DNA from: Cymodocea nodosa
Lineage: Eukaryota > Streptophyta > Magnoliopsida > Alismatales > Cymodoceaceae
Reading direction: 5' to 3'
NCBI GenBank assembly: GCA_036874045.1
Contig: CM072347.1
Span: 3,412,501-3,476,500, forward strand
DNA: 64,000 bases
The number at the start of each line of letters is the position of its first letter. Position 1 is the first letter of the stretch. Below are positions 16,603-62,228 of this stretch, one piece after another. The notes under the pieces are model-generated. The model made no database searches. It was not told the origin of the DNA and was given only the letters and a program-made list of their open reading frames with translations. The position numbers and the translations under genes were made by a program.

Positions 16603-16623
16603 GTTTTGTTTCCGGCGTAAGCA

Positions 16624-24121: not shown

Positions 24122-24547
24122 CTACATGTTGACTGCATATCTCTTTGGTGTAGATGACAATGACGGTGCAATGTATGTCTCTGAGATGGAGATTGCAACG
24201 TGGTGCAATGCTAGAGCAGTCGCCGATAAGAACACTGCAAAACAACTCCAGCTGAACCTGAGCAGCAGTAGAGGATCGGTTCTTATGGATCTCACAACCT
24301 TGTGTAAGATTACTTTCAGTCGACGATCACTTGGGACTGTCAAGAGTGAATGTGATGATGATGGACCAGGAAATGGAGGACTCTTCTCTCCTTGTTCTCT
24401 ATTAGTCCAATGCCGTGTTCTAGAGTTGTGTAGTCGTAGCATTTCTGTGATTGACTGGTGTATAACATTGGCAAGAGACCTGCTCACGAGTTGCCGGAAG
24501 AGAACTGCTTCACTGGAAATCATAGCCCGGATTAGGGAACGAGATTC
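24122..24547 (-). CDS. ABC1K terminal coding exon
   Basis: 426 nt, 141 codons plus stop. It begins ESRSLIRAMISSEAVLFRQL, the conserved C-terminal block, after acceptor TTAAGCAG. The rest is a variable tail with a Ser/Pro-rich part, then a hydrophobic stretch (LLLLRFSWSCFAVFLSATAL) that may associate with or cross a membrane. It ends in a basic region. The 3' UTR follows below 24122. Confidence 0.9.
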   Translation of the reverse strand, partial: ESRSLIRAMISSEAVLFRQLVSRSLANVIHQSITEMLRLHNSRTRHWTNREQGEKSPPFPGPSSSHSLLTVPSDRRLKVILHKVVRSIRTDPLLLLRFSWSCFAVFLSATALALHHVAISISETYIAPSLSSTPKRYAVNM

Positions 24548-27500
24548 CTGCTTAATGCAATAAACAATGGTCAAATTTTGAAGTGAATAATGGACACACA
24601 ATTCCATTTCAGAGAAAAACATAATATTTTAAATAGATTCAACCACCGTTGTACTATTTTGGATATTCTTCCTAAAGGTATTAGACAATAACATAGGCAG
24701 TTGTGTATCATGTTATTACTAGGTGACGATTCATGCCATATTTAACATCCCAGTCCTATATCAAGTTGATTTACTCTAGAGAATTGTTGTGTCCTTCCAA
24801 GCTTCAACGGGACAGCTGAATTTTTACAAATATTTGAAATTTTAATGCTTGATCAATGGAAATCATTTAAACATGGTCAAAGGTTCATCTGCCTATTTGC
24901 TTTGCCTTGGTACCAAGTAAAGTGCCTTGCTTCTTCATATCTTGTCCATGCATCATCGCTACTTGTATCATATATTCTCACCATTACATGCAATCCTCCT
25001 ATGACGTATGGGTATAATAATTTCTATGCAGGACATGAAGGAACACGAATGCTTTGGAACATGTAGATGTGTGGAGAATTAAGCCTACTTAAACATATTT
25101 TAACTCTGATATTATGTTGAAGTATGCACATTCCACGTAAAATTGACTACAAGTGATGAAATCTTTCAATGTATGAATTTAAGACTTGTCCTTGTATTTT
25201 CAATGTGAGACCATTCCGACATTGTCCTTTTGCAACCTTTTAGGACCTCCAAGCCTCCCTTTTTATATATGGTTAATGTGTGGGGAATTGGATCCATTTA
25301 GACCTTGAGTTGATAACATGTTCAGATATGGTCTAAATTAAAACCAATTATCTATATGAAAGGTCCTTCTATATATAACATGGTAAATCTTGTCCTCACT
25401 CTTTCCAATGTATGTATTTCAACAGATTCATTAACACATTTAGCAGGACAGGCAGGTATATACATGGATAGAAAAAGGGTTCTTTTTGACTCCAAGAATA
25501 GGTGCAACAAGAAATTGGCAAAGAGAATAGAAAAGGGGAAGAATAAAAATCTAATATGACGAAAAGGTAAAAGGAATTATTATCTTTTTCTTGTGGTTGT
25601 ATCTTTGAAACCCTGTTTTGATTTCGTTAGTGTTGATTTTTTAACCTACCTATGGCTTGTGCAGACCTTTTTCTTGATTTTAATATCTCTCATTACCGCT
25701 CAAAAATAAGGTAAGGAATACAAAAAAGCAATATAGAGCAATCATAGTAATTGAACTGTAAAATACCACATTCATTAGTAGTCTTCGCACTACAATCCCA
25801 TCATTAGATGTCAAAAGTCTCAAGACCAAATCTGCAGTTCTAACTATATCTGTATTTCTTCCAGAAGAATCGAGGTTAAAAGATGAATCCAACTTGGTGA
25901 GCCCACCCATGCTTTCCCTGCGTTTACATTTGAGGCACCAGTAAAAGAAAGAATAATCATTTTGGTAAGCATAAAAACTCCCTACATGTATACAACTAAC
26001 ATTGCTATAACATAACTAAGACAACTAAAAAAAATGATAATTTTGATTTTAAAGAATACAATCAAGTAAGACAAGGTGCACAGTCCAGTATACATTACTC
26101 TTATAGAAACCTATAGATATCTGTTTTGTAAGATATTGAAAATTGTGAAATACCTTATGGATAAAAATAAGCTTAGCAGTCTTGATGCAAAAGATTGCAT
26201 GTATAAATTGAGCATGGACACTACCCTATGAAAACTTTTATAGTCAACACTACTAGTTACGTTAATACCTTATAAAGCCTAATTTCAGAAAAAGTGAAAG
26301 ATTCCTCCAATGGAATTCCCTTCTTTTGTTGAACACAACCTGCATATGAGAGATCTTGGTTATGAAAATCATTTCTAAATGGCCTTTTCACATGCATAAT
26401 TCTACAAGAAATTTATATAAATTGAGCAAAAAAGAAAATTCCATGGATATCCCTGAAACATATTATTAGCAGAGTATCATTAAAAAAGATTACCATTATA
26501 CTCTCTATGTTAAATATATGACATATCTATAAGCATGTGATATTTACATTGTCACAACATTTGATTTTCTAGATGCATATAATAAAATGTTTCCTTATAG
26601 CCATATTAGCTATAACTTTGAGGCACATGGAGTAAAGGTGGATGCTTACAACATTTGATTTTGTAGAAGTTTAATAATCATTAGGATATTACTATTATGA
26701 ATAAAAAAGAGAAGACAAATCAAAATTCCTAAATAATCAAACCAGAAGTTTACCAAAGTCTCAATGACTAATCATGTTTTTACAATTTCACATTAGATGC
26801 AAAAGCTAATATAGAAATCAGAACTAACCCACTTAAAATTTGTTGATATAGTAAGTGCAACTTTATGATAAGCAACAATACAAGTGCTAGATAAGTAGAA
26901 TTTTTCTTTTGATTTTAGAGGCATTCTTTATTATATAATATTTTAGATGCATTTTTTCATTTCATTCAAGCTAATATAATTATATAAACCATATCTTCTA
27001 TAATTTTCTCATTATTGCCATGGGGATATGAAGTAGATACAAACCAATAATATGAATTTCTTTTAGCTGTATCTCAATTTGAAACCAAACTGATTAATTT
27101 CTAGATCCAAATTTGAATCTAACATATACAACCCAATTCAGGTATTATCCAAATCCAACAATCATTTTAAAATTCAAAGATTATTTATAAATGTTTAAAA
27201 AATTAAAAAGTACAAATTCAATTCTAAATATATCACAAGTAATTAAAAATAATTAAAGTAAATATTTTAGATGCATTTTACATGTTTCAATCATTTAAAT
27301 ATGATCCTCTTTGGTTGAGTAGCCTATTTGATTGGTCATCTAATCTACTTCTCTTCTAAAGACTTATTTGAGGTTGTTAAGTTAATTCTTAAACTTGCTT
27401 ATACAACGACACTAGAAGACTTGTATTGGATTTGTGAACTTATATTTGTTAAATGGTGTCAGAAATGCTTGTTTAATTTGCTTTTATGCTTATATAAATA

Positions 27501-30500
27501 ATTACTTTTAAAAGTAAATAAACAACATTTCACACAAATTCAATATTAAATCCAATTTGTACTTTTAACTGCAAGTGCACAGTGTATATTGTATTTGTGT
27601 GCAAGTATAGGTCGATCCTACAGAGATTGAGTAAGAATTGTGTACTGTTCTGATTTTTATATTGGAGTTTATGCGTGTTAAGTTAAGCACTCCATTGAGT
27701 TACAATTAACACAACGGACTAAGTTCGCGGAGTTATGGTTAACTCAACGGACTAACCTCGTGGACTTAGAGTTAACTCCACGAGCTTATCTTTTTAGTTA
27801 AATACTGCTATTTACAAAGGAATTCAGCCAACCATTAGGAAATTCCACAGATTGTAAATAACATCAATTAAGCTATTTAATGTTAGTTAATATTAGATTT
27901 ATTATTAAGCAATACTAACATTCAGATGTTTCCAATAGTAACCATTAAAATATTTAGGTATCTGGAACGAATCAATTTCAGTAAACTGTAAAACTATTTT
28001 CTATTTTCTGAATCAAACAAACATAAAATATTCACAATACTAACAATGATAACATTAATCACGATACAAAACAAATAATACAACACTTTAATACTAAATG
28101 TAAATATAGATAATTTGTTGTTTTTGGTATTTTTGTTTTGATATGTTTCTAAAGATGATCGAAAGGTAAAATGTAAAAATCTATATCGATAGTAAAAACT
28201 TCTATCACTACATGCGACGCGATTATACCACTGAAAACTTAATCACTTACAATCCTACCTCATTTCCCTATAGAATCACGAATCCAGAATTGTAAGATGA
28301 TCTTCTCTTCAGCATGCTGACATCAACCCGAAACCAATGCTAGAAACTTTATGATCTCCTAAGATATGAGTCGGTGCTTGGTAAAAATGACTTCCATTCC
28401 CACGACGTGATCACTCCTCACAATGATTGTCAAACACCGTGTTTGGTTCGGAATCGACCTAATATCAAAAAAGTATCTTCATAGACCTCCGATGGTTGGT
28501 GATTTTGGTGGTAGTGTGGAGCTTCAGGGAACTTCCGATGCTTCCTGCAGTTAGCGCGGTCCTCCACCTCTGCACACACCTTTTCTTTATTTTTCTCTTC
28601 TTTTATATTTCTTTCTATAGTAATTGCTTCTACTTATATGATCAGTTGGATTTCTTTCATTCATATCAACGATGATGTTTTCTTCTTCCTTCTACGAGTG
28701 AATTTCTACATGATACATGTAATTGTGGTTTTCCTTCGAATGTCCTGTTTCTGCAACTGCTACAGTGACATATTAGAAAATAAATGGTCCGTGGAGTTAT
28801 AAATAACTCAATAGATTTACTTCGTTGATTTAACTATAAAACACGTGTAATAAAGAAATAAGCTGCTAACATAACACGTTACCTTAGTTTGTATTTATGT
28901 AACTCAATGCGTATAGTTATGCTAACTTAACGAATTAAATATGTGCATCTCACGTGACATAATAAAGCATTTAAATTCAACACGTGCATAAATCTAACTT
29001 AATGAGTTCAGATATTTTGAATACTTACAAACCTTAACTATCTGATGTCCAAATGCATTTCGGATAGTTAGCAGATACTTACCAAAAATCTACTTAAGTC
29101 ATGCATTGAAGTTTCAACACATGTAATCTAAGAAATAATAAAATATTCTTCTATCGTTAAAAACATAATTGTCCGGTACATTAAACATAACTCTTCGAAA
29201 TAACAGAAAATTCGGATATTTAAGAATTTCAAAGTCTATAATTCACCGACAGCTTAGAAATGTATTAAATTAACGCTAATTCCTTGAAATTATGCAGATT
29301 CATTCATTAAAGCATATAACAGTGCAATTATAACATAATGACTTAATTCTCGTATGATAAGCTAAATATTATGCAATTAACCATCATTTAACTATTAATA
29401 TTATATACTTTTCATTCTAAATAAGACTTGAACCCTTTTCAATCCTATGTGAACTAAAGTCCCTTATCCTTCAAAAAGGAGAATACAAGGAAATATATAT
29501 GAATCATAAATGTACCCTAAATGGACACCTAAATAGATCTAATGCAACAAGATCCACTAATACTCACACTCCCCCTCAACTTGAAAAGTATATATTTCCC
29601 AAACCTAGCTTGTTACAAATATAATCAAATGAGATCTGGCTTAAACCCTTGGTAAGAATGTCAACAAGTTCATATGAAGATGGAGTGTATGGAGTACAAA
29701 TAACCCTTTTAGTGACCAAGTCTTAGATATAATGATAGTCAATCTTGATTTTGTGCGCTCATAAAAGGTTTCATTTTGAACTATATGAATTGTCATCTAA
29801 TTGTCATAGTGCATAGGCATAGGTTTTTACACAGCAACACCACATTCTTGAAGAAGGGATCAGAGCCATATCATCTCATAACTAGCTTCTTTCATTGATC
29901 TGTACTTTAACTCACAACTAGAGCAAGAGATGACACTTTGTTTCTTATTTCTCCAAGTTACAAGATTTCCTCTCACATATGTAAAGTACCTTAAAGTAGG
30001 CATCTTGTCTATCTTATCTCTTATGTAACCTACATCTAAGAAAGCTTCAATCCTCAAGTGTCCATTGGCCTGATAAAGAAGGCATTTCCCAAGTGTGTCC
30101 TTGATGTAAGTTAGGGAGGGTTAATGCCTAATAGAATTCAGTTAACGGAAAGGAAAATTACTAAATTCTGTCAAGTAAACAATAGTGTGACGTATTTGTA
30201 AAGGAAAAGAATGTCTCAACATTCCCAAATATAAAAGGAAAAATTTTCCTTTACTATTGTCCACCCTTTCGAAATCCCTCGAACATTTCCGAAATTTCTC
30301 ATGACCAACAGGTAGGTGATTGTTCCCGAAAGCCTTATTGGAGCTTCCGTCCATGCGCATTCCTGTTTCACCCTTGCGTTCATTCAATCATCATCCCTCA
30401 ACCATCTGTCCATGTGTTTCTTCCTTCATCTACACATCTTCTGTTGTCGTTTGTCTGCACATTCGTTCGAGCATCCATCCATATGCATTCTCCGTCTGTT

Positions 30501-33500
30501 CGTCCAAGTTGATGCATTGGAAGATCAAGCAACGCCACCAAATCATGAGGATCGACAATCCCCCAATTGAATCGTCTAAACCTTTATCGAAGATTTGTAA
30601 AGAAAAAAAAATCAAAACCACTAGGTGTTGGTTATCCTCAACCCCTCAAGTGGTCCAAGCAATGTCTAAAGTGTTCATGATGGTATTTTGCACGAAGAAT
30701 CGGTATTGTTGTTTGCTTTGACTCCATCATGTGGTCGGGGTTATGGCTTCACAAGTAGGTGGTGCTCAACCAATGATGGTTGTAATTGGATGGCGAACGA
30801 CTAGTGGACTCCATCGAAGAAGATAAAGGTGGAGGAGAAAGAAAAGAAAAAGAAACTTTTTTTTTTGTGAAAGAGGAAGAAAAGAAAATATAAAAAATAA
30901 GTTAAAAAACAAGAACGAAGGAAGTAGATGGGAGATATGAAAAAAAATAAATAAATAAATAAATAAGAAAAATAGAAAAGAAATATTATTGATGACATAC
31001 AACCAATAAAATTTTTGTCTAAACTTTCCATCGTACACTAAACCCTTGTCAAAATTTTTCTTTTTCTTTTCGTTAAAAATTTTCATTTTCTTTTTAATCG
31101 AAATTTTTCTTTTCATTTCCATTAAAATTTTCCATCGTACACTAACAACCCTTTAATAGCTATTGGACCCTTGTCCAATAGACCTATCTTGACTTATGCA
31201 TAAATTGGCTTAGCAACTCTATAATGTATGTAATATCTGGTCTAGTAACAATGAGATAAATAAGTTTTCTTATCAACCTCTAATATTGCTTGGGATTATC
31301 CAGTTTCTCAATTGTTGTGTCCTAAAATTGCGGTCTTTGTTCAATAGGCATACTTTCCAGTTTGCAACCAAGACATCCTATCTCCATCAAGATATTCAGT
31401 GCATACTTACATTGAAATAGCACCATCTTCCCTTTTGAGTATGAAAATTCAATACTAAGGAAATATCCAAGTCTCTCTGTATCCTTTGTCTAGAATACTT
31501 TGTCAATATGTTCTTTTGTTCTATTAATATCTTTAGTGTCACTACGTATAAGAAGAATGTCATCTACATAAACTACAAGTATAACAAACCCTTGAGCAGT
31601 CTATTTAATAAAGACAAAATGATTCATGGTGCAATGATGAAAACCTCTGCTAAACATAACTTGACTCAACTTGCCAAACTATGCTCATAGGCTTTACTTT
31701 AAGCCATAAATAGCTTTCTTTAATTTACAAATCTAATGTTACTCTTGAGCAACATAGTCTAGTGGTTACTCCATGTACACTTTCTCAGTGAGATCTAAAT
31801 ACAAAAAGCCATTCTTAACATCAAGTTAGTGGAGTTCCTACTATTAATTCACTACAAGTGAAAGTAATACTTAAGTAGAGTTGAAACGAGCAACTAAAGA
31901 GAACGTCTCAACATAATCAACTTCATACTCTTGTGTAAAACCTCGAGCAACCAACCAAGCCTTGCATCTATCTACAAAACCATCTAACTTGTATTTTATA
32001 GTAAAGATCCACTTGGAAAAAATTGTGTTCGTGCCTATACAACAAGAAACTAACTCCTACATACCACGAGATTGTAGTGTAACCATCTCATTATTCATAG
32101 CATCTTTCTAGTATGATAGTTGTAATGCCTCTTGATGTCCTTAGAATAGACTCAAATGAGATTGTCATAGCAAAGGCATGATAGGAGGGGTCTAAATGGT
32201 AATAAGAAATAAAATCGACAATGAAATGTTGTATGCTTGTACCTTTGCGAAGAACAATAAGAAGATTATGAGTGGAAGGTATAGTAGGCTTAACTTAGGT
32301 AGATGGACCTGTAGGAGAGGTTGTAGAAGGTGAAACCGAAGAAGCCACCATAGGGTGTTGGTGCTAATGATACACTTGCAATAGGCACTTAGAAACTCTA
32401 CTATCCTCGTTAGAGTCATGGCACTAAGGAAGAGGGGTTGCAACCTAAATATCCTCATCATGGTTATCCTTAATAGTAATAAGAGAGGGAATCGAGATCA
32501 ACTCAATGGAAGGACTCTCAAAGAAATAAGATTAATCTTCAAAAAAAGTAACATCGACAAAGGTATATTAACGATTGGTAGGGAGATGATAACATCTGTA
32601 TCTTTTTTGAGTCTAAGAGTAACCCACAAATACACACTTAATGACCCAAGCATCAAGTTTGTCAAGGCCTAAAGTAAGGTTTTGAACATAAGCAGTGCAT
32701 CCAAACACACGAAGAGAAAGCCTAAAAAGTTTACAATCTAGATAGAAACGATGAATAGGGATTTCACCCCTTAAAGAGATGGATGGAAGGCATCTAATTC
32801 ATAAGATAGGCTATGATAAGAACCGCATCAAACTAAAGATAATTTGAACATTCATTTGGAACAGAAGAGTGCAAATGATATTTAAAAGATGACAATGTTT
32901 TCGCTCAGCAATCCTATTCTGTTGAGAAATGTAGGTATATGTAGTATGATAAATGGTTCCCTAAGCAGCACAAAAATTTTCAAAAGACATACTAACAAAC
33001 TCCAAAGCATTATCAATTCGTAAACACTTTGGTGTAACAAAAAATTGAGTTTTTATTTCATTAAAGAACTTTTGAACAATGAACATGATATTTTGACGAT
33101 CTTTCAAGTACACTCAACAAACCCAAAAATAATCAACTAGTACAATGTAATAACAGTAGCTACTAGTAGACACTATATGACATGACCCCCATACATCACA
33201 ATGTATAAGATCAAACATAGAATCACTAGTGGTAAGGTTAACACAAGGATATGATGAACAACTATGCTTGCCTAACTAACACAACTCACACTCAAATTTA
33301 GAAACAGATATCCACAACAAGGCTTGTCAAAGCTTCTAGAGAGGAGTGACCAAGCCAATAGTGTCATAAGAGAGAGGACTCAATGGAAGATAACAAAATA
33401 ATAAGGCTACGAGAGGGTGTATCACGAACCAAAATATACACCCTAGTGCTCTTTTTGTGGCCCAAACTAATTCTAATTCTCTTTTCTATCTGTAGGTCCT

Positions 33501-51500: not shown

Positions 51501-54500
51501 GAAACATGTTGAGGTTGATTGTCATTTTATCAGAGACTATGTAGCCAAAAAAATTATCTCCATGCCTTTCACTTGATCTGAAGATCAAGTTGCTAATATT
51601 TTCACTAAAGGGTTTGGTGTTAATGTTTTTAAAAAATTTTGTAACAAGTTGAGCATATTTGATATATATGCTCTAACTTGAGGGGAAGTGTTAGTATTTA
51701 GTATTTATATGTTAAGATCCATTTAAGTGTAAATGGATATCCATGTAACATATTGTATATATATATTTTCTTGTAACATACGATACAGGAGACGATCTAT
51801 TTTTTTTCTTCTTCATTGTTCAACTTATATTTTATAGGCAACTACTAGATTGTAAAATTCACTTACACATTTTGGTTATGTAGAATTTCCCAAGATAACT
51901 CCATAAATTTCAAATGATATAAGAAAAAGTTCAATAATAGTAACAATGGTGGTAGTATTAGTTCTTAAGAAAGAAATGAATGACCAATGCATTGATAAGA
52001 CAACTTACATATAAATAGTGTGAGAATAAATGATGTATTAAGTTATTTGTACATTGTAGGTTTAGTCCTACATTGTTTAAATGTGTTTTGTCCTTTTTGT
52101 GTAGGTTTTATATATAGAAGTATTATGTTTTCTTATTAATAACATTTCGTTTCTACTTAATTTCTTGTATTTCAACATGATATCAAAGCAAATTCATGCA
52201 TATCCACTTGATCTAAATAAAAAGGACTTGTAAATATAAAATAAGTCATAAATGAATGAGAGAAGTGTGGAAAGTTCCATATCAATCCATGTAGAAATAA
52301 GATTTGAGCTAATATATAATGAACTTTACTCAATATCAGTTGATTTTGCATAACATCAAAGCCTAAGTTTTAAGAATTCAAAATTGTATAATATCTAAAG
52401 TTGTGTTTGATATGACTTTTTTGAAAAACAGATTTTTTTAAGAGCAATATCATAACTTTGAATTAAAAGAGCAATTCTTTTTTAAAAGAAAAGGAAATCA
52501 AAAGTGATGTTTGATAAGAGTTACAACTCTTTTTATTTTCCAACTTTGGCCTTAAGATGAAGTTTTTTAGGAGTAGAAATTAATATGTTTTTAATCTTTA
52601 TAATAACAATTAGTGATAATAATTAATCTATATGTATTTATTTGTAATTTTATAATTAATATTAATACATAATAATAATTTTAGGCAACATATATATATA
52701 TTAATATAAATTAATACATATATATTAATACATATATAAGTATAATATGCTTTGGTTTGACCGAAGATGAGCAAACCAAAGGGATGTTTTAGTCTGATCG
52801 AGAAGAAGAGGTTGGTTAAATCAAATGTGCAACCTGGTTTGATCAAGAATTGTTGATTCAGGTGATGGATGAATATCGTAAATGGTCAGATGTCATGAAA
52901 ATGCGAAGGGCAAGATTGTCTTTTTATAGAAAGATTGACAACACTTCTACATCACAACCTTATACCTATGTTGGACTTCACATTATACACTATAGTATTT
53001 TAAGTAAATGTGTCATGTATTTTACCATGTGGCACGCTTACATTTGATATCTATGACCATGCCAATCATGATACACAATAAAAAGCACAGCTGGTGCAAA
53101 TCTATCACAAATATCAAACACAACCTAAATGGAGAGGAGAGAAACTTTAGTTTTCATCCTCCTCCTAATTAACCATCATTAGCCATCAACTCCACCTACA
53201 TTGAATACATCACTCCTACATCCCAGACTCTCTTTCTTGCAATTTGTCTACCTTCTCTTAACCACCATCATTGTCACCAAATATTGTCATCCCAATGTCT
53301 GCCACCCTTGTTCCTTATCTCATTCCCTCTCTTACTTTCCACCTATCCACCTCTACCTTCCTCTCTAGCACCACTTTAGGTTTGTTTTTCTTTGTCGACC
53401 CCTTTGTCCTCTTTGTCTAATGTCTCTGTTGAGTCATTTATTTACTTTAGTATCCATATACATATGAATCTATATATGTACTCTAATTTTTCATTAATGT
53501 GATGATGATAATGATTAGGGTTTTACTCAACATGATATCAAAAGTCAACCCATCACTAACCAACCTACAATAAAAGGGGTCATCTCCAATATAGACAGAA
53601 TATAGATCAATGGTGGCAGCTAGTTGTGAAGTGGTTTGGCTGAAATTGTTATTGCAAGAATTTGGTGTGATAGTTGAAGAGCCAATACCAATGTACTATA
53701 ATAATCAGGTCGCTATACATATAGCTCAAAATGAGACATTCCATGAATGAATAAAATATATTGAAATTGATTGTCACTATGTTTGTGACTTGGTGACAAA
53801 AAAGGTCATCTCCACTCCTTATGTCTTGTCATCGAAGGAGCTAGCTAATATTTTTACCAAAGGCTTAAGTCATGGGGTATTTGATACAATTTGTAACAAG
53901 CTAGGTATGAAAAATATATATGTACCAGCTTTAAGGGGAGTGTTGAGTCATATATTTACTTTAGGATCCTTATCCATTTAAGGATCCATATACATATGGA
54001 TCTATATATGTACTCTAATTTTTCATTAATGTGAGGACGATAATGATTAGGGTTTTACTCAATAGTCTCCAATACTACTAACAATGGATTACAAAATAAC
54101 AAGAATAGAGGACCAAAGTTTAGTCATCAAAGACCATACAAATGGATTTCTGAATAATATACATAGAAATGATGCTCCCAAGTTCCTTATCCACTTGGTC
54201 TTACTCTTGAGTTACCTCCCAAGCCTATGTTGACGTTTTCTATTTCCATCTCCATTGAAAACCTTCTCATGACCTTGTGCACCCTAATCAAGACACTAAC
54301 AAGCATTGACAAACATCGACTACCGGTGTACCACAAGTGCTGCCACTCCCTCTTTGACCTCAAGACACTAAGGATTGTCCATCTTGAAGACAGACTTTGC
54401 CAAAAGCTGTTCACATTCCTCAACCCCTTCCTACTCTCCTCATCTGAGAATGTTGCAATTACATGGACTCTCTTCTTTGAAATTCTTTGTAAGCTCAAAC

Positions 54501-57500
54501 TCTCCATTATTATTGAAAAAGCTTAGAGGAACCCTTGTCACCTGCACCCATTAGGGTTGTAAAGGCAAGACAAATAGTTGTAGACAAAGAGGGCCAAGGA
54601 GAAAAGAAAGGAAAGAAAAGAAAAAGGTGAGAGAAAAATAAAAGGAAAAAAGGAATAGATAATAAAAGAAATGAAGATGACAAAGAAGGAAAAGGAAAAA
54701 AAGAAGAAAAGAAAATGAAAGAAATGAAGGAGGAAGAAGACAAAGAAATAAAAGGAAAGAAAAAGAAAAAAAGGGAGAGAAAGATTAAAAAAGGAATAAA
54801 AAGGGAGGAGAGAGAGACGGAAAAATATAAAAATATTACCAAAAATAGTGGTTAAAAAAATATAGTGGAAGTATAAAAAATAAAAAAAGAGAAAAAACTT
54901 TAAAAAAAAAACAAAAAATTCAAAAAAAAAAATCTTAAGGGTAGAACCCAGATAAAATAAGTAAATCACACATAAAAATGTATCATCTAAGTAAGCAAAT
55001 GATGCATGTTATGTAAATGCATGAGTTTTGTAAAAATAAAAAGGATTTCACCAACCATGATGCATAAACATACTTGACTTACCTTAAAATCAAGCGATAA
55101 AATGCATATGAAATACATGAGCATATAAATAATGCATGTGCAACCTTAGAAAATTATAATTTAATTCACACATAGCAAAATAACACGAAATAAATATGAT
55201 TCTATAACTAATCAATCATACTTCATGAGAAAAATACAAGATTAAAATTTCATGTCATGGAAGTTCACATTAAAATTACATTATTAAATCTCCTATAAAG
55301 TAGAAGTCGAAAACCTAATTGCAATTTTAGAAAGGTTTTCTACAAAAACTTTAAAGGACTAAACTGCAATAGTAGACTTATTTGTAATATGAAGAAATTC
55401 ACTAGTAAAACATGCAAAATGCCTAATTTGTGAGGAAAAACCTTATTTTGTAAAAATAAAGCTACAGTAATTGGACTAATGAAGTTTGACACCTATTCCA
55501 ACCCAAGAGGGTGGCACAATTGTGGAGAAGGGTCGTCGACAATGCATAAGCATTACCTAGTTATTGACAAGAGGTTGTAACTACAAAGGAAGCTCAAACA
55601 TTGTTTTAGATGCTGCTAGATCTTCATTCAACTTGGTGGTCCACCATCGCTGGATTAGGGGAGGTGGTTCTATAACAGAGCAATCAACCTCTCAAGGGTA
55701 AGGGGGTGTCTGGAAATAGTGCAACACAATCTTCTAAAAAATTAAAGGCATTAGATGAGCGATTTCACAACTAAAGGACACAAGAGGAGCCAACAAAACT
55801 TTGACAATTGCACGGTTCAAATGGGTTGATAGGATTGTTCACTAAGGCCCATCGTCAGACTTTGGGTGGCCTAAAATCTGGGGTGGTCGAGCAGAAAAGG
55901 TTTATTCTGGCTACCCTATGGCATTTATGCCTTGTAAGGAGGGGCATCAATGATTGTTTGCAAGCAATTTGGCAAAAACAAAGGTTGGCCCATTGCTCTC
56001 CGTTTCTTTTTCTTGTCCATTGCTTCTTCCCCCTTCCCAAGTCGTTGTCTTACCCTCTTTTTTCTTTAAATCTCAACAAAATGGTCCAACATGGTGGTGG
56101 CAGAGAGAGGTGTGGTTGTCCAATCTGATGGTGGCAAGAAGAGAGTGATAGAATGGATGCTTAATTGGGTGACAAAAAATGTTAACCAAGGTCAAACGAC
56201 AGACTGATTGGGAGGCTAGTAGGCTAATTTCGATAGATTGACAAACCATTTAGGACAATAGCATATCGATTGATGACATGGTGTATGGTAAGGCAAACTG
56301 ATGAACAATTGGTAGACCAATTTTGAGAATGGTGTACCAATTTCGACAAACTATTTAATGTTTCAGCAAATCGATGTTGACATAGTATGTAGCTAAGCAA
56401 GCCAATAAACAATCAACATACCATTTTAAAGAACATATCAATTTCTGACATGGCAGTTGCAAACATGGTGAGCACCCTGATGACCCAACACCCATCCTAA
56501 TAACATGACATTTGTCTTAATGATGTGGCAAAATGTCTTGATGGCATGGCATCCATCCTATTGATGTGGCATCTGTCCTAATGACATAAGATCCATCCTA
56601 ATGGTGTGGCAAATACCTTAATGGCATAGCATTCATCCTCATGACATGAGATCCATCCTAATGACATGGCAAACATTCTGATGACATGGCATCCATCTTG
56701 ATGACATAGTATTCATCCTAATGACATAGTATTCGTCCTAATAATGTGGTAAAATGTCTTGATAATATGGTAATATGTATTGATGACAGGCATCCATTCT
56801 GATGATGTAATAAAACATCCTGATGACATGGTAAACATCTTAATGATGTGGTAAAATGTCCTGATGACGTAGTAAAACATCTTGATAATGTAGTAAACAT
56901 TCTAATGACACGGTAAAAGAGGAAAGCATGATCAGCCCTTTTCTGCCTAGGTTCTAGGTAATGGGCCTTTGGGCCCAACAAAGGAACATGGGTCATAGGA
57001 CTTGCAAAAGGGATAATGGGCCTTTAAACCCATGCAAGGAGGCAATGGGCCTTTAAGCTTACAAAAGGGGCAATGGACCATTGAGCCCATGCAAAAGGAT
57101 AGATGGACCATGAAGCCCAATAAAGGGGTCAGTCATTCTACTTGGTCTAGATACCTGATCTTGATTGAGGCTCAAAAGTGGGATGCCTACATCTATTATA
57201 GCAATTGGTTTCCTACCTCAAATTGTATCTGATGGTCATTCTACTATTTAAAATATAGTTTTCAAATTACTATCTATTATTGCTATAGCAATTGGTTTTT
57301 TATATTTCTCTATGTATCTATTATTTCTTGTTATAATTATTAAATTATTATTGAGTCTATTGTGTTATTGAATCTATTGCAAGATAGATGCTCCAATTTG
57401 AGAGTGTGAAAATAAATAATGTATTAGGTTATTTGTATATTATGAGTTTAGTCTCACATTGTTTAAGTATATTTTGTCCTCTTTATGTAACCTCTATATA

Positions 57501-60500
57501 TAAAGGTCTTATGTTTACTTATGAATAACATTCCACTTCTACCTAATTTTCTTATGTTCCGACAAATAGGATTTACAATATCCTAACCAAATGAATATCC
57601 AATAACCTACTTATTTGCCAATTACATAACTAGAGACATCTAACAATATCTAATAGAATTAATAGTATACAATATACATTTTAAGGTGCCTACCTAGATG
57701 ATGCTCCACCTTGTTTGGATACCTAAGATGTTGCAACACCCTTGACAGGTTCCATGGTGAACCAAAGCAGTTAATGTATCCTGGTCAGGTTCCATATATC
57801 CTTGAGATCCATATATTTTAATATAAAACCTAAAAACACAACAAAAACCCTATATTCTTTCTTTCATCCTCTCCTCTCATTCTTCCCCACCAACAGAACC
57901 ACCTCTTCCAACAGCCCTGGTTTAGGGTTTCAGTCGGTTCTGCTCTGTTAACACTAGTGGTGGGTTTTGACAACTCTGTTCATGGCTTCTGACAGCTCAG
58001 ATGGTGCACTCAAGTAGCACCAGCAGCAATTCTAGAAACTATGATGGTGGATTCTCAAGGCACTGGCGGCTACCTTGCTGCATTCCAGGCAGTCCGACAG
58101 CTTTAGTGGTGGATCTGGCTGCTTCCAAAGTTTCTTAGTTTCTTCACTTTTATTTTATTTGCCTTTTTATCTATTTTTCCACTGGTTTTCTTAATTATTC
58201 CTTAATCCACTTCTATCTATTTCTTTTCTCATTACTTATTGACTTATTTTTCTTTGTGAATTTCATTAATATATATAGATAAGATAACTATTAAGTATTA
58301 ATATATATAATCGTATATGGTATATGGATATCTACATGTGTAAAATCATGTGTGTTTGTAGGAACTGACTAAGCACGAAGGTGCCCAATGCACCCAATCA
58401 CATTGCCATGGCACCTGGGTGACAATAAAAGGTATACTATACATGGTTAGGTCTCAACACAATGATAATTCTTATCAAATAAAATTGTTTCCATAAGAAA
58501 TCACCACCATTCCTTTTATATAAATGATCCATCTGCTAAACTAAAGCTGGCAAAATTCAATGATGTAACTCTATTAATTGGCTTGCAACAAAAGGAACTT
58601 TTCTTAAGCAACTTAGAGATAGAGTCTATCTCAGCATATGATCAGTAGATGGTGTATTTGTGGTGGTGTGTTGAGCCCATGGAAGTCTTCGTAACTTGTC
58701 TAAAGATCTGTCACATGCATAATTAGTTTGACTAAAATGATAACTATGAGATGGTTCAATCATTGGTAAGCCAATTTTCATAACAAACACCCTTAACACA
58801 AATGGTATAACAAGTAAAATGTTGAATACCATGGTAGACACCAAAAAGGTCACAAAGACTAAACATCATGCAATAGAGTGAAAGGTGGGCCATCTGGTCC
58901 ACAAGCACCGGTTCAGCACTGCCAGCTCATTTTGCATTCATAAGGGTTAATTCCTAGGGTTTTGCTAGGCAATTGATTTTTTGTTGCAAAGACTTGGAGA
59001 GGTTGCTACCTCTCAAACAGTAGCATCTCAGTACCAATTCCACTGTTTTCCACCACTCTTCCACCATTGATCCAAGGTTTTCCTAGTGTTACAGGTGCCA
59101 GACTACACACACTCATGAAGGTTTGTTGCATATCACATGTGTTAAACTTCAAAGATGCACTACCAAGTTTATTCATGAATGACTCGCACAATCTAGAAGA
59201 AGAGGCCATGGATTAAGACTTAGGACTATTAAGACTTGGGACAATTATGTCACTAATATAGTCAACAGAGCAAGAAAAATGAGGGAAACAGATCTGGAAA
59301 TGGCTAAAAAAAAATCTGATTTTCAAGAAATCAACGACACATACACTTACAGGGTAGACATAAAAGAGAGGCACCCAAATGAACATGAAAAGGGTTCAGG
59401 CAATAGATCACAGATGGATTGCACCTGTCCACAACACCAACTCTTAGACACAATACAACTGACAGCCCAACACATGGCTGGAATTGCACTGGTGAGGATG
59501 CTGAGGATGAAAAGGGCAAAGAAAATCACCAGTAGAATGGTCAGAACTCGGAAGAGACCTGCATTAGTGGACAGAAGGGCAGCAGCAGAAGACAGCAATG
59601 GGAGACGAAGAACCAGCAATGTAAGAGGTTGATTGCACAATGGCAAAGGGGACTGCAACTTCTCTCTATCATTTTTGTAGATTTAAATCCTAAAACTCTA
59701 GCACCAAGTGAGATTAAAAACTCATTAGTGCATGACATAATATTTAGATGGAAAGGAAATGGAAAGTTCAGAATGGTCAAAAATGAAATGTTCGAAAAGT
59801 TAGAATTCTTGGAAAGGTTTAGTGCACGTGTCGAAAGGTCCAAAAAATTTGAATTCCCTAGGAGACCTATATTGTTATAGGTCTAGAATAATTTGTTAAG
59901 ATCAATTTCTTAATTAATAAGAATAGAGTGTATTATAGACATCACACTATATTTATTTCATTATAAATATCTATCTCTTGGTTAATTAATACCTTATCCA
60001 ATTTTACTATACCTTTCTTTTATAGTAAGCACCTCACTGAAGAAATCATGGCAACAATTGGATCACTTCCCATGCTGACGTCTCTCAACCTCTTGAACGA
60101 TAATCTCTCCAAAGAGATCTCAAGCAACATGGGCAAGCTAAAGCTCAATGACCTCAACCTCTCATTCAACTCTCTCTCTAACCCTGTCCCATTGTAGTTC
60201 GAGAATGCCACATACACCAATAGCTTCTTGTTCAATCTCAACCTCTGCTTGTTGGGCAAAGGCACTGTCACCGCCCATCTACCACTCTGTAATTCCCAGT
60301 CAGAACCCGTCTAACTTTCCAAGGGGTGACTTGCCTTATTCATCTCACTTGGAACGGTCATCTTCCTTGCAACCATGGTGTTCGCATTCTTCATGGTATG
60401 AAAACTAGGTCTACAAGGTCGATGTCAACTATTGAGCGGGAGACACTATGACCATAAAAAACATCTAGAACAAGAGACTTGACCCAAAACTAGAGAGAGC

Positions 60501-62228
60501 ATTTGATGCAAGACAGAAAAATGCTACATTCAGGCAAGAGTTGGAAAGGAGCAGTGCACGATTTTTGGACCCTAAGCAATGGGAAAGCAAGAGACGGAAA
60601 GGAAAATCACTCCTTTTATATGGTTGGAATTTTTAAAATTATTTTCCCTTGTTTCCAATACACACTAACATCTTAAGGATCAAAATTTAGCTACTTTCCT
60701 TTTCCATGGTTGAATTCCACTAAGCACAACACCCCTAAAGGAAAGTGAATAAAAAATTGTTTATTGGTAAGAGGGTATTACATAGATGGATATCCAATAA
60801 CTCATATAATTCATACATGATATGCTACATCTCTAATAAATATATATGGAGAAAAAAAAAATAGAGAAGAACTTGAAAGAAGGTGCAAAAGGGAGGATGG
60901 AAATACTTGTATGAAATGTCCAATTAGTTGAGACCAAGGGTTTTAGGGAAGACACTTGGGCAGTGCCAAGGTGCCCAAGTGGATTTTTAAGTCCAACTTC
61001 ACCCTAGACGCCCAAATTTGTTGAGTTAGGTGGATTATGGTGAATCCAATTAAGTATCTAATAAAGATCCAGGTATGGCGAATCATATATAAATGTTTGT
61101 TAGGGTTTCTAAACCCTAAAAAAAAAAATCTTTGCGCACTCTTCTCTCCCCCCACCTCTCACCTTTGGCAGCTGCAATAATGTTTGTTAGCTCTCTACCC
61201 TAAAATATATTCTATATATTTTGGGAATATTATACATGTATATGTTATTTTGAAAAAAAATTAATTAATAGGAACACCTAGGCACCCTTGGCTAGTGCCT
61301 TGCTGCCTTAACAACCTTGGTTGGGACAACACAAAAGTGGAGAGATTATGGAACAAGGATTAACATCATGGAAGAAAGAAGGCAAGTTTAGTTCCAAAAT
61401 TGTTTGCCATTTTCTGGAACACGTGACACAAGAAATGCAGAAGCATAGTGTAGGTCAAGGTTATTAGGGTGCCAAGACACCTAGGCTGCCTTGGAGGCCT
61501 TAAGTACTCGCTTATGTACCCATATTAATATATATATATTTTTTAAATATGTATATGTATATTAGTTAGATATTTTTATGTATATTAATAATTAATAATA
61601 CATAAACAAATAGTGTAAACTAACTTATAAAAATGAGTCAGCAATAAACACAACAATATGGTATTTAAAAGTCACCAACTTATAAATTAATTTGGTTAAA
61701 AGTCAATACACTATAACAAATAAAATATTCAAAGTCTTAATAATATAACAGTCCATACCATAATCCTACTATGTGAGATCAACCATATAAATCATCTTCT
61801 TCCATATATTGTCATCTATGGTTAAATCAACAGAGAAACTGACGTTATGTAGTTCAAAAAGGAAAAAGCTGCAAATAAAGTATTTTCCATCTTGTACCTC
61901 TTTAAAGTTAATCTGTCATAATGATCCAGGGAAAATATATGATTGTTTTATGGTTCATTTAGGGAAAAATATCGTATGCAAATAAAGGAATTGTAATGAC
62001 TAACAAGTGCTGAAGACATTGGACAACTAATCCCAGCAAAAAGAAGTTAGCAAGTGACTGAGTACCAGGGTGACACGACAAATGTTTGTTTTCGGGGGTA
62101 CCACATCCATCTGGCCCAAATCTTCAACAAGGGCACTCCAATCACCAGTTACTATATGTATTATGGATGCAAGCATAGCTAATTGGTGTCTTTTCTCCAT
62201 TCGGCAAAGTAATCCAAAATCAAGAAAC
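24122..62228 (-). CDS. ABC1K (ADCK/UbiB-type) kinase gene, seven 3' coding exons across 38 kb
   Basis: Seven minus-strand exons join without frame conflict: 62228-62066, 46910-46845, 42212-42119, 41922-41810, 26339-26269, 25917-25767 and 24547-24122. Together they give 360 residues plus a stop. The product starts one codon before FLDFGLLCR, the kinase DFG motif, then runs HQLAMLASIIHIVTGDW, MDVVPPKTN, LGKIWSIALKYHFRMPPYYTL, LAVAADPDFKTFQAACPYVV, LVLRLLTSNDGIVVRRLLM and ESRSLIRAMISSEAVLFRQ. This is the conserved order of plant ABC1K proteins. These atypical kinases regulate quinone/prenyl-lipid metabolism in plastids or mitochondria. The N-terminal kinase exons and any targeting peptide lie right of the window, so the exact member cannot be named. 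The coding sequence is intact, and every intron has GT-AG ends. Confidence 0.92.
25767..25917 (-). CDS. ABC1K exon (1 nt + 50 codons)
   Basis: 151 nt: completes Arg, then ESMGGLTKLDSSFNLDSS and the conserved DLVLRLLTSNDGIVVRRLLM, ending NV. The donor is GTG|GTATTT. An alternative donor two codons... one codon earlier (AAT|GTGG) would also stay in frame; the chosen one restores the usual family spacing before SLIRAM. Confidence 0.9.
26269..26339 (-). CDS. ABC1K exon (23 codons + 2 nt)
   Basis: 71 nt: VVFNKRREFHWRNLSLFLKL then GFI, ending two bases into an Arg codon. The acceptor is TATGCAG and the donor ATAAG|GTATTA. Separated from the preceding exon by a 15.5 kb TE-filled intron. Too short to appear as an ORF. 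Confidence 0.92.
26340..27395. other. Intron DNA of the ABC1K gene, no TE recognised
   Basis: AT-rich, unique-looking sequence at the 3' end of the 15.5 kb intron, before the solo LTR. No coding signal on either strand. Confidence 0.5.
27396..29423 (-). repeat. Solo LTR of family A in an ABC1K intron
   Basis: 2028 bp, same orientation as and homologous to 4388-6437 (shared blocks include the GTCGATC region, the MITE-free central part and the ATTCGGATA end). The ends are TGCTTA...CTAAATA, so the final CA has decayed to TA. Flanking AAACT (27391-27395) and AGACT (29424-29428) look like a 5 bp TSD with one mutation. No PBS or internal region follows. Confidence 0.8.
29446..29568 (-). repeat. 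3' LTR of copia 29446-35212
   Basis: 123 bp. It starts only 17 bp beyond the TSD of the solo LTR, so two insertions occurred almost at the same spot. Its outer base pair reads TA where the partner LTR has TG. Confidence 0.88.
29569..30117 (-). pseudogene. Copia RNase H remnant
   Basis: The reading LTYIKDTLGKCLLYQANGHL, then AFLDVGYIRDK and FTYVRGNLVTWRNKK, is the copia RNase H start and core. Stops follow. Interrupted upstream at about 30118 by the 1 kb insertion. Confidence 0.85.
30118..31152. mobile_element. Insertion of about 1 kb in copia RNase H; TIR-like ends AGGGTT
   Basis: The copia frame stops near 30118 and resumes near 31153. The inserted piece begins AGGGTTAATGCCTAAT and, reading from the other end, AGGGTTGTTAGTGTACG. 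Subterminal GGAAAGGAAAATT-like blocks occur near both ends, similar to the elements at 37201-38128 and 59717-60675. The middle (30310-30720) has ORFs without recognised domains. There is no transposase. Exact ends and TSD are uncertain. Confidence 0.5.
31153..32080 (-). pseudogene. Copia reverse transcriptase remnant
   Basis: The minus-strand reading shows pieces such as VTRPDIT, SQFMHKSR, DGFVDRCKAWLVARGFTQEY and VDYVETFS, broken by many stops and frameshifts. Confidence 0.75.
32600..33340 (-). pseudogene. Copia integrase remnant
   Basis: Readable parts include FDLIHCDVWG, YYIVLVDYF, LRIDNALEF and YISQQNRIAERKH, the integrase core motifs (HCDVWG, D-N-x-x-E-F and QNGxAERKH forms) with substitutions and stops. 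Confidence 0.8.
33770..35077 (-). pseudogene. Copia gag with CCHC zinc knuckle
   Basis: The open piece 34127-33882 carries CHHCGKVGHKQDWC, a complete CX2CX4HX4C knuckle, after a basic SSQGRGKTNGG stretch. Upstream gag is in several broken frames up to the PBS at 35078. Confidence 0.8.
35090..35212 (-). repeat. 5' LTR of copia 29446-35212
   Basis: 123 bp, directly adjoining the PBS. The other LTR differs by scattered substitutions. Confidence 0.9.
35218..36029. other. Intron DNA, no gene or TE recognised
   Basis: AT-rich sequence between the copia element and a LINE fragment, with short direct repeats such as ATTAATATTAAGAAACATAATAT at about 35900-35970. No coding signal. Confidence 0.45.
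36030..36614 (+). pseudogene. RTE-type LINE endonuclease fragment
   Basis: Across broken frames the plus strand reads NGI, KIIVVSAYTP, then FIGGNLN, GFGNKNEKGNSILDF, LLVANTYFRKRDEH and a final TTQHRLLDI-like block. This is the apurinic endonuclease domain of plant RTE-clade LINEs ('craniofacial development protein 2-like'). The catalytic stretch is disrupted by stops. It is ended at about 36615 by a copia LTR. Confidence 0.82.
36615..36758 (+). repeat. 5' LTR of truncated copia
   Basis: 144 bp, TG...CA, directly followed by a tRNA-Met-type PBS. It contains a TATATATATATTC promoter-like stretch. Confidence 0.75.
37201..38128. mobile_element. TIR-like non-autonomous element inside copia
   Basis: The left end is AGTCCATTAGTACACAAC. 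The reverse complement of the right end is AGCTTAGTGCACATC, matching over the TTAGT(A/G)CACA core. A second copy of the right-end block (GTGCACTAACATCTTA) lies at about 38060-38076. Copia coding is intact in meaning on both sides. A subterminal GAAAAGTC..GAAAGTC stretch (37250-37330) is shared with 59770-59860. No transposase; the TSD is unclear. Confidence 0.5.
38881..40735 (-). mobile_element. Ty1/copia remnant, 5' part
   Basis: A probable 5' LTR (40592-about 40735), a PBS TGGTATTAGGAGC (minus, 40591-40579) and broken gag lead to the pre-integrase region 39372-39082 (LEKVLYVPDFLVDFLFVNAI, then FQDLQIKRRIG). It stops near 38900, where the oppositely oriented copia ends. Integrase core, RT and 3' LTR are missing. 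Confidence 0.75.
40736..41809. other. Intron DNA with CAAGGC-type repeats
   Basis: 41040-41220 contains AAGGTGTTTAAGGCAAGAG, GGCAAGCACCTTACC and ACTAGGCAAGTTGCC, part of a family of inverted CAAGG/CCTAGG words found again near 42.6, 58.4, 60.9, 61.3 and 61.5 kb. No gene is recognised in the rest. Confidence 0.45.
41810..41922 (-). CDS. ABC1K exon (2 nt + 37 codons)
   Basis: 113 nt: completes Gly, then LAVAADPDFKTFQAACPYVV and QKLIYDNSLATRRILQS. The acceptor is CATCTTCAG and the donor TCG|GTATCA. The intron to the preceding exon is only 196 bp. Confidence 0.95.
42119..42212 (-). CDS. ABC1K exon (31 codons + 1 nt)
   Basis: 94 nt: VLGKIWSIALKYHFRMPPYY followed by TLVLRSLASLE, ending one base into a Gly codon. 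The acceptor is TCTCACAG and the donor GAAG|GTAAAC. No long ORF shows it, since the exon ends quickly in intron stops. Confidence 0.95.
42213..43139. other. Intron DNA, no gene
   Basis: A CAAGGCAACTGCC...GGTGAC block lies at about 42575-42670, followed by a C-rich stretch (42830-43060) that may belong to the end of the gypsy element. No confident coding signal. Confidence 0.4.
43140..46260 (-). mobile_element. Ty3/gypsy element remnant (RT to C-terminal chromodomain-like region)
   Basis: Minus-strand order: a pre-RT segment with the HPEVNKLLQAY and PKMQTQDQRI equivalents (about 46150-46050), RT (45950-45550: VLLVKKKDGLWQMYITYREL, DRYPMLIIDKLLDELGQAKV), RNase H and connection (45425-45237: FVSFLGLASYYHWFIKDF), integrase core (about 44400-44290: NFDERLLPLKGRTNILVV) and the tail 43647-43340 (AYRLQLP-type, then SATWEDY, a chromodomain-like element). 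43140-43340 is probably 3' UTR/LTR. Gag and protease are not found. Stops are frequent; it is dead. Confidence 0.85.
46261..46844. other. Intron DNA upstream of the gypsy remnant
   Basis: No gene or repeat recognised between the gypsy remnant and the 46845 exon. Confidence 0.45.
46845..46910 (-). CDS. ABC1K exon (22 codons)
   Basis: 66 nt, phase 0 on both sides: DLEQTLGEMVLVDGVPDIKFSK. The acceptor is TATTACAG and the donor AAG|GTTAGT. It sits alone between a 15.2 kb and a 4.6 kb intron. Confidence 0.93.
47150..48122 (-). pseudogene. RTE-type LINE, reverse transcriptase and 3' end
   Basis: The minus-strand reading gives a CMLFADD-like box (ILFVDDNFD, about 47950-47990), then KISVVEI.ILRWINGN (about 47440-47500; the KMSVAEMRMLRWM motif of plant RTE elements) and FRCFDHIF. 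The end carries the widely conserved RTE 3' block CCATAATCCCACTATGTGG (about 47157-47176 on plus). Many stops. Cut at 48122 by the next copia. Confidence 0.82.
48128..48264 (+). repeat. 5' LTR of copia 48128-51825
   Basis: 137 bp, directly followed by the PBS. The RTE LINE lies immediately left of the TSD. Confidence 0.9.
48660..51640 (+). pseudogene. Copia pol remnant (integrase, RT, RNase H)
   Basis: Integrase: LGHKYYIVFVNDFSQVSWVY (about 49096), LRTDNAFEF (49250), KVVERKHRH (about 49360). RT: SCRWVYTIKH (50280), YGIDYFETFSL (50370), LNKAIYRLKQSPKEWFEKF (50572 on) and a YIDSMLLTGDD catalytic box in which the usual DD is DS. RNase H: GYSDTGYVGDKVDRKSTFGF (51210) and the terminal VANIFTKGF (51590). 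The 50572-50958 and 51040-51387 parts are open, the others broken. Confidence 0.88.
51689..51825 (+). repeat. 3' LTR of copia 48128-51825
   Basis: 137 bp, matching the 5' LTR with about a dozen differences. Confidence 0.9.
52019..52177 (+). repeat. 5' LTR of LARD-like element
   Basis: 159 bp, followed by the PBS. Confidence 0.88.
53427..54064 (+). mobile_element. 638 bp internally deleted copia nested in the LARD-like element
   Basis: The LTRs are 53427-53532 (106 bp) and 53941-54064 (124 bp, with an extra 18 bp block). A perfect TSD GTCTC lies at 53422-53426 and 54065-54069. The PBS TGATATCAAAAG follows the first LTR. The 408 bp interior keeps only the end of RNase H: YYNNQVAIHIAQN-like, then VTKKVISTPYV, ELANIFTKGL and CNKLGM (about 53600-53935). 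The rest of gag-pol was deleted, leaving a TRIM-like copy. Confidence 0.9.
54590..54950. repeat. Purine-rich low-complexity block
   Basis: About 360 bp of almost pure A/G on the plus strand (GAAAA, AAAGG, GGAAGAAG words). It generates long Phe/Ser/Leu-rich ORFs on the minus strand that are artefacts. Confidence 0.8.
56460..56935 (+). repeat. Imperfect minisatellite, GATGACATGGCATCCATCCT unit
   Basis: Around 20 diverged copies of a unit of about 22-24 bp with core (T/A)ATGA(C/T)(A/G)TGG(C/T)A. Variants replace CAT by AAA or GTA. Confidence 0.82.
56946..57130 (+). repeat. Imperfect minisatellite, AATGGGCCTTTAAGCCCA unit
   Basis: Five to six diverged units of about 30-36 bp with core GG(C/A)AATGG(G/A)CC(T/A)TT(A/G)A(A/G)CCCA. 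Confidence 0.75.
57405..57564 (+). repeat. 3' LTR of LARD-like element
   Basis: 160 bp, homologous to 52019-52177 with many substitutions, indicating age. Confidence 0.88.
57570..59716. other. Intron DNA, probably old repeat debris
   Basis: 57750-58140 is a pyrimidine-rich, leader-like stretch with TATAAAACC, which could be an LTR remnant. 58360-58430 has CAAGG/CCTAGG-type words. 58980-59210 (minus) has a short ORF resembling nothing known. No confident gene. Confidence 0.4.
59717..60675. mobile_element. TIR-like element carrying a captured LRR receptor-kinase fragment
   Basis: The left boundary region reads CTCATTAGTGCATGAC; the right reads CACACTAACATCTTAAG, whose reverse complement is CTTAAGATGTTAGTGTG. 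Both share the TTAGTG end with the elements at 37201-38128 and 30118-31152. The GAAATGTTCGAAAAGTTAGAATT subterminal block (59785 on) matches the corresponding block at about 37243. The interior contains host-gene sequence (60027-60401). No transposase. Exact ends, TSD and class are unresolved; it behaves like a Pack-type element. Confidence 0.5.
60027..60401 (+). pseudogene. LRR receptor-like kinase fragment (last LRRs to transmembrane segment)
   Basis: One frame runs from 60027 to 60401: GSLPMLTSLNLLNDNLSKEI, then GKLKLNDLNLSFNSLSNPVP, FENATYTNSFLFN and CNSQSEPV. A hydrophobic segment LALFISLGTVIFLATMVFAF follows. This is the final leucine-rich repeats, the LRR C-cap and the transmembrane helix of a class XI LRR-RLK (HSL/At5g25930-like). 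Three in-frame stops but no frameshift. It begins after a TTTTATAG, possibly an ancestral intron acceptor. No kinase domain follows, so it is a fragment and not a decayed full gene. Confidence 0.85.
60676..62065. other. Intron DNA with CAAGG/CCTAGG words and an RTE 3' tail
   Basis: Blocks at about 60925-61025, 61260-61330 and 61450-61520 contain GGTGCCAAG, ACCTAGGC and GCCTTGG words in inverted arrangement. At about 61750-61815 lies CCATAATCCTACTATGTG, the RTE LINE 3' block (minus), homologous to 47157-47215. No gene. Confidence 0.5.
62066..62228 (-). CDS. ABC1K exon with DFG motif
   Basis: 163 nt: 1 nt completing a split codon plus 54 codons. The acceptor is TTTCTTAG and the donor CTG|GTACTC. 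It encodes FLDFGLLCRMEKRHQLAM, then the HIVTGDWSALVEDL and MDVVPPKTNICRVTL segments. The Asp of DFG binds metal in this kinase family. The previous exon (HADPHPGN region) is not found between here and 64000. Confidence 0.93.

Follow-up and report, generated by a model that had tools for sequence, protein, structure and literature searches.

An intact ABC1K kinase gene with transposon-enlarged introns in Cymodocea nodosa, and the likely capture and spread of one of its exon–intron pieces by a PIF/Harbinger element

Can a conserved gene be drawn out to 25 times its coding length and loaded with mobile DNA while its reading frame stays unbroken? The question is raised by a locus of Cymodocea nodosa (assembly GCA_036874045.1, contig CM072347.1), where we analysed a window of 64,000 nucleotides, meaning the whole stretch from position 3,412,501 to 3,476,500 of the forward strand. 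A preliminary description of this window had proposed one ABC1K gene extending over more than 38 kb, assembled from seven minus-strand exons. All seven are present, the six introns between them run GT...AG, and the phases are compatible. The 360-residue joined reading, from FLDFG to the stop codon, was reproduced from these exons; the intron lengths given earlier agree with those measured, and the coordinates of the three short exons were exact. The proposal of a single gene was right, while its extent was incomplete. The right flank was taken from the same contig, with window coordinates obtained as contig coordinates minus 3,412,500, and the rightward extension suggested earlier for the HADPHPGN and N-terminal exons yielded nine more exons, up to an ATG at 84869. 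The whole gene comprises 16 exons over 60,748 bp of the minus strand (extended window coordinates 84869 to 24122), and its single open frame encodes 820 aa. The coding sequence amounts to 2,463 nt (820 residues plus stop) and the introns to 58,285 bp, and all 15 introns are of the GT-AG type. Introns 11, 12, 14 and 15 measure 4,632, 196, 351 and 1,219 bp, and intron 2, outside the window, 9,209 bp. Once the upstream exons are joined, the split first codon of exon 10 reads as G (GFLDFG). The features are collected in Table 1.

Table 1. Coordinates of the kinase gene, the captured piece and the mobile elements, in extended window coordinates.
Feature	Coordinates	Strand	Description
Exon 1 of 16	84869-84560	-	right of window; begins with ATG
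Exon 2	84190-84015	-	right of window
Exon 3	74805-74643	-	right of window
Exon 4	74493-74441	-	right of window
Exon 5	73229-73086	-	right of window
Exon 6	71431-71327	-	right of window
Exon 7	69793-69668	-	right of window
Exon 8	68098-67904	-	right of window
Exon 9	66614-66508	-	right of window; encodes HADPHPGN
Exon 10	62066..62228	-	GFLDFGLL..., activation loop region; phase 2/0; ortholog matches
Exon 11	46845..46910	-	66 nt; phase 0/0; ortholog matches
Exon 12	42119..42212	-	94 nt; phase 0/1; ortholog matches
Exon 13	41810..41922	-	113 nt; phase 1/0; ortholog matches
Exon 14	26269..26339	-	71 nt; phase 0/2; ortholog matches
Exon 15	25767..25917	-	151 nt; phase 2/0; matched by 4 of 6 orthologs
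Exon 16	24122..24547	-	426 nt including stop codon; phase 0/0; ortholog matches
Intron 10	46911..62065	-	15,155 bp
Intron 13	26340..41809	-	15,470 bp
Captured piece, donor site	68048-67314 (C21:3480548-3479814)	-	outside window
Copia element A, complete	48128..51825	+	intron 10; LTRs 137 bp, 13 mismatches; TSD TATAT/TATAT; PBS-like TGGTATTAGAGC
Copia element B, complete	29446..35212	-	intron 13; LTRs 123 bp, 14 mismatches; TSD AATCC/AATCC
Copia element C, complete	75179-78802		intron 2, outside window; LTRs 149 sites, 17 differences; TSD GTAAC
2-kb repeat	27483..29424	.	intron 13; four relatives in 96 kb: ~4455-6435, 9400-11237, two left of window
Repeat	35587..36629	.	intron 13; has an inverted counterpart at 82193-83342, intron 2
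RVT_3 (RNase-H-like) fragment	63159..63761	+	intron 9; 49.5 bits vs cut-off 21.6

The gene model was compared with six ortholog proteins (P0001, Magnolia, Vitis, Acorus, Dioscorea and Spirodela) searched against the 96-kb region with E up to 10. On the right strand, the numbers of exons matched by the six queries were 16, 15, 16, 16, 16 and 15 out of 16, and both queries with 15 missed exon 15. Reversed versions of the same proteins matched none of the 16 exons in this region, and stray matches elsewhere in the 96 kb numbered 0–4 per query in the forward and reversed sets alike. Since forward orthologs match 15 or 16 exons and reversed ones none, the exon matches are not due to chance. The many contigs of round-number size, which suggest scaffolding, could mean that separate loci were joined in assembly and make the gene look long; this is very improbable, because the 96 kb contain no N, all 16 exons stand in order on one strand, and copia elements A and B are whole, each within a single intron and with both target duplications present.

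By its sequence, the predicted protein is a plant ABC1K, that is, an atypical kinase of the UbiB/COQ8 type. The Pfam ABC1 domain (PF03109) matched residues 239–495 of the full protein at 213.8 bits against a cut-off of 22.9 (2.6e-63), whereas a Pfam search with the first 361-residue half alone gave zero matches, so that the full protein was required. The motif KxGQ, the Ala-rich loop, the catalytic Lys (VAIK), ExD, HADPHPGN and DFG, which are marks of the ABC1K/UbiB family, lie at residues 216, 276, 294, 345, 443 and 463. The protein thus shares with plant ABC1K/UbiB-COQ8 kinases the same ABC1 domain and all six motifs in the usual order, and no difference from them was seen at the protein level; the gene itself is about 61 kb long. 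The nearest solved sequences (six matches) are ABC1-type proteins and COQ8A/B by name, and PDB entries for the family include 4ped, 5i35, 7cy2 and 5yjz. A bacterial UbiB equivalog was ruled out, as TIGR01982 scored 267.4 bits, below its cut-off of 487.55. The best 120 of 7,373 protein matches, many of them from angiosperms, are 740–1,123 aa long and 54–63% identical, and each covers 83–100% of the query; this coverage, together with the PF03109 score, bears out the earlier identification as ABC1K. The database labels of the matched proteins disagree (slr1919, sll0005, ABC1K3). Arabidopsis ABC1K6 is given as 793 aa in PMC12587418. From family membership, the protein is probably located in the plastid.

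The introns in turn hold a variety of mobile elements. The preliminary description counted at least eight TE insertions; this number is plausible, and its firm part consists of two copia elements, the RVT_3 fragment and the 2-kb repeat, whereas the gypsy-like (45708-45986) and gag-like (39085-39375) pieces, named by eye, gave no Pfam match at E 0.1. Copia element A carries RVT_2 at 50518-50955 above the Pfam curated cut-off, and in element B a PBS-like stretch adjoins the right LTR. The stretches beside the LTRs of A and B resemble the usual initiator-Met primer site. The LTR ends of elements A–C were placed by eye, and the perfect 5-bp TSDs emerged only with these shifts of up to 2 nt, which makes 0.0016, the chance calculated for each 5-bp match, too favourable a figure; an automatic TG...CA scan found no TSD for A and B and one of 4 bp for C. 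At a substitution rate of 1.3e-8 per site and year, the insertions of the three elements would date back about 4–5 million years (intervals spanning 1.7 to 7.3 million years). The repeat at 35587..36629 is LINE-like by eye, without Pfam support. When 20 ORFs were searched against Pfam, TE domains were found in seven (five within introns and two outside the gene) and a Patatin domain in one, and the remaining 12 gave no match or sub-cut-off matches that were not believed. Among the five intronic TE-domain ORFs, RVT_2 at 50518-50955 and RVT_3 at 63159-63761 lie above cut-off, while gag_pre-integrs, rve and one RVT_2 lie below. Counting weak ones, nine repeat intervals occupy 13.9 kb of the window's introns, which leaves a large share of the intron DNA unassigned. 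Rfam gave no match in the window at the gathering threshold. A 150-bp MITE-like repeat was also observed in four copies, at 52017-52177 and 57403-57564 in intron 10 and at 68140-68285 and 69133-69279 in intron 7.

Outside the kinase gene, copia-type fragments (RVT_2, SH3_retrovirus) occur at 7772-9389 on the minus strand. A 407-aa open frame at 16621-17841 on the plus strand, past the kinase gene on its 3' side, carries a patatin-like phospholipase domain (61.8 bits vs cut-off 27.7).

An alternative is that this gene copy, its exons still open, is decaying or silenced, in that poly(A) signals in the TE-filled introns end transcription, so that truncated kinases and no full-length transcript are made. 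Translation continued from an exon into the following intron is halted by a stop codon after 1 to 43 residues in all 15 cases, and sense AATAAA motifs number 16, 12 and 14 in introns 2, 10 and 13 as raw counts. Furthermore, in the ibm2, cmt3 and ddm1 mutants of Arabidopsis, among others, transcripts of several genes whose introns contain methylated TEs are polyadenylated prematurely, and full transcription across heterochromatic intronic TEs requires special control in that plant (PMC4417168). This explanation is nevertheless quite unlikely, given that the 2,463 coding bases contain no frameshift, no stop and no broken splice site despite an estimated age of some millions of years for elements A–C, that conserved positions are kept as in relatives, and that no near-identical replacement copy was found among the scored candidates.

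These last two points can be quantified. Near-invariant columns were defined by at least 95% agreement among the 120 best-match rows, and 258 of the 268 such columns are kept by the query, compared with 251 in P0001 and Spirodela, 253 in Acorus, a median row of 265 and a lowest row of 251. In a tree of 32 rows (the query and 31 of the 120), the query pairs with P0001 (support 100/98) and then with Spirodela (98/94), a genus placed in Alismatales; this position points to a monocot, probably of that order. The query is 58–65% identical to ten compared plant rows, and Spirodela, Acorus and P0001 are about equally distant from the others. Its end branch (0.44) is twice the tree median of 0.22, and P0001, Spirodela and Acorus have even longer ones (0.51, 0.54 and 0.51). 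Relaxed selection on the kinase gene was considered and is not supported, the end branch being no longer than those three. In the genome-wide protein search, with 55 of 148 candidates scored, nine matches correspond to exons of the query gene and 44 to a single exon-8 piece present in copies; the remaining two, at 29–31% identity, would be other ABC1K genes, as expected. Because only 9 of the 16 own exons were listed, a near-identical second gene would show, and a strongly diverged one might not. An intact paralogue elsewhere, which the preliminary description had named as a reason to doubt its gene, was sought by local tblastn on 29 loci, comprising 20 selected regions and nine further loci, and in this whole-genome search, and no near copy emerged among the scored candidates. 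The predicted gene is therefore best regarded as intact, as had been claimed, and it is apparently single-copy.

The exons remained under constraint while the introns enlarged. The introns have grown to their 58.3 kb total at least partly through retrotransposons and other repeats. Most likely the normal spliceosome removes them from the pre-mRNA together with the elements they contain, and the 820-aa protein results. The rarity of long introns implied earlier was overstated, since three other ABC1K loci of this genome show gaps of 8–13 kb between matched profile pieces and TE-filled introns are documented in angiosperms. These gaps are 12.9 kb on C7 (pieces 46-99 and 127-175), 8.2 kb on C2 (pieces 2-46 and 45-81) and 8.6 kb on C1 (pieces 93-140 and 178-240), and those on C7 and C1 may each hide an unmatched exon. 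One survey puts MSH1 at more than 50 kb in 34 species, Zostera marina among the named examples, and its longest intron at 101,025 bp (PMC10487979); PMC3058033 describes grapevine introns that grew via LTR elements. The present gene shares with these cases a near-constant coding length and TE-driven intron growth; it is a different gene, and its largest introns, of 15.2 and 15.5 kb, are well within the range those sources give. Because other ABC1K loci are long and the MSH1 and grapevine cases are in print, the long TE-filled introns of this gene are ordinary in kind.

The 44 dispersed protein-level matches are less ordinary, as they all cover one piece of the kinase only, from residue 377 to about 427. 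At the DNA level, this piece measures 735 bp and comprises the last 145 nt of exon 8, the splice donor and 590 nt of intron 8. A nucleotide search using exon 8 plus flanking sequence, in which 40 of 101 candidates were scored, returned the gene and 39 copies at 93–97% identity. The left start of these 39 falls on the same base in 37, and 1 and 5 nt earlier in the other two. Combining the protein and DNA searches (55 of 148 and 40 of 101 candidates scored), the piece occurs at at least 51 distinct sites on 19 contigs. Its breakpoints are identical on the left in all three copies read and on the right in both copies read that far, and the copies compared share substitutions relative to the gene. 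In a copy on C5, the piece is 95.7% identical to the gene's 68048-67314, with differences at 5 of 145 sites in the exon part and 24 of 589 aligned sites in the intron part; four of the five exon differences are silent, and because the differences include changes on the gene's own line, no weight is given to this. Shared breakpoints and shared substitutions would most simply reflect one capture event followed by spread of the chimeric element. Purifying selection on the piece is not claimed, because a stop codon interrupts 3 of the 44 protein-level matches and the lists favour best matches; the piece looks like neutral cargo.

The carrier was characterized in the C5 copy, read over 5.6 kb (C5:5693650-5699250). 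Downstream of the piece and on the same strand lie a Myb/SANT-like ORF1 (Myb_DNA-bind_3, PF12776, 33.3 bits vs cut-off 23.6) and then a DDE_Tnp_4 transposase, detected in two of three pieces tried (25.5 and 52.2 bits vs cut-off 24.8), the third giving no DDE_Tnp_4 match. A Myb/SANT-like ORF and a DDE_Tnp_4 transposase form the gene pair that PIF/Harbinger elements carry. Some 0.7 kb separates the piece from the element's left end upstream of it, and this end follows TTA here, whereas a second copy has TAA in that place; no convincing right terminal repeat matching the left end was found in the 5.6 kb of this one long copy. This copy also seems to be inserted into another member of the ~2-kb repeat family.

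When the left end was searched, 39 of 41 matches started at query positions 128–148, about position 607–627 of the copy; the other two were the source itself and a flank-only row (C18:6344678-6344814), the latter left out of the pairing. Among the 40 best left-end matches, query locus included, the piece follows on the same strand 0.64–0.83 kb downstream in 22 and on the opposite strand in none, with 0.014 pairs expected by chance; in the other 18 it is absent, or present among the unscored candidates. ORF1 lies 0.8–1.1 kb downstream of the piece at five sites and the DDE domain 2.8–3.1 kb downstream at four, the query locus being included in both counts. The best 40 matches are 97–100% identical for ORF1 and 98–100% for the transposase, and this similarity suggests that the PIF/Harbinger family probably multiplied recently. 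No scored piece lies near 35 of the best 40 ORF1 and 36 of the best 40 DDE matches, so that elements with the piece either form a minority or escaped scoring. First-look candidates, all unscored, numbered up to 839 for ORF1 and 2,198 for the transposase, which hints at a burst both recent and large.

A PIF/Harbinger transposon placed a copy of the 735-bp piece in its 5' part, ahead of ORF1 and the DDE transposase, and transposition then carried the chimeric element to at least 51 sites; this is demonstrated by the breakpoints, order and strand that the copies have in common, while the mechanism of the capture itself is an inference. Because the intron is uninterrupted in the piece, unspliced sequence, most likely DNA, was copied. 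The direction of transfer could in principle be reversed, with transposon sequence exonised into the kinase gene as the exon-8 match, and the piece does recur in dozens of copies across the genome, against a single one in the gene. Such an origin is scarcely conceivable, as the residues belong to kinase exon 8 and are matched by all six orthologs, the element flanks of the piece are absent from the gene, and homology ends at both breakpoints. That the transposon took the piece from the gene follows from its being kinase coding sequence with its own intron, from the match of all six orthologs to the exon, and from the absence of element sequence beside it. Taken together, an intact kinase gene with TE-enlarged introns and the capture and spread of its piece by a PIF/Harbinger element constitute a very likely joint reading. 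An unlikely extension would be that the piece is more than cargo: sense-oriented and with an intact 5' splice site ahead of ORF1, it would give the transposase transcript a spliced leader exon and intron, and small RNAs from its many copies, matching exon 8 and intron 8, would dampen or methylate the donor gene, linking host gene and transposon in a feedback loop. With the donor, the breakpoints and many copies in one assembly, what the capture does to the donor in terms of small RNAs, methylation and expression is directly testable.

Comparable elements have been described in other plants. Grapevine has PIF elements whose 5' region contains host exon and intron sequence, and the 3-bp PIF target duplication is TAA/TTA (PMC2528002); Zm-Pack-PIF is a further capturing PIF case (PMC8903248), and gene capture was reviewed in 2026 (PMC13317346). 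Among the listed papers on PIF/Harbinger capture, no title or abstract opening mentions a case with an ABC1K piece. A Pack-TYPE (transposase-less) element was considered and rejected for the four sites, the query's included, that keep a DDE match downstream of the piece. With Pifvine-3, the element shares a host exon and intron placed in the 5' region upstream of ORF1 and transposase and common to multiple copies; it differs from Pifvine-3 and Zm-Pack-PIF in that the donor is an ABC1K kinase gene and the piece occupies at least 51 sites. Here a PIF/Harbinger element took up host exon–intron DNA, apparently a single time, and multiplied it, and several sites still have the transposase genes next to it. 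The process is a known one, of which a widely dispersed piece donated by a kinase gene is a clear new example.
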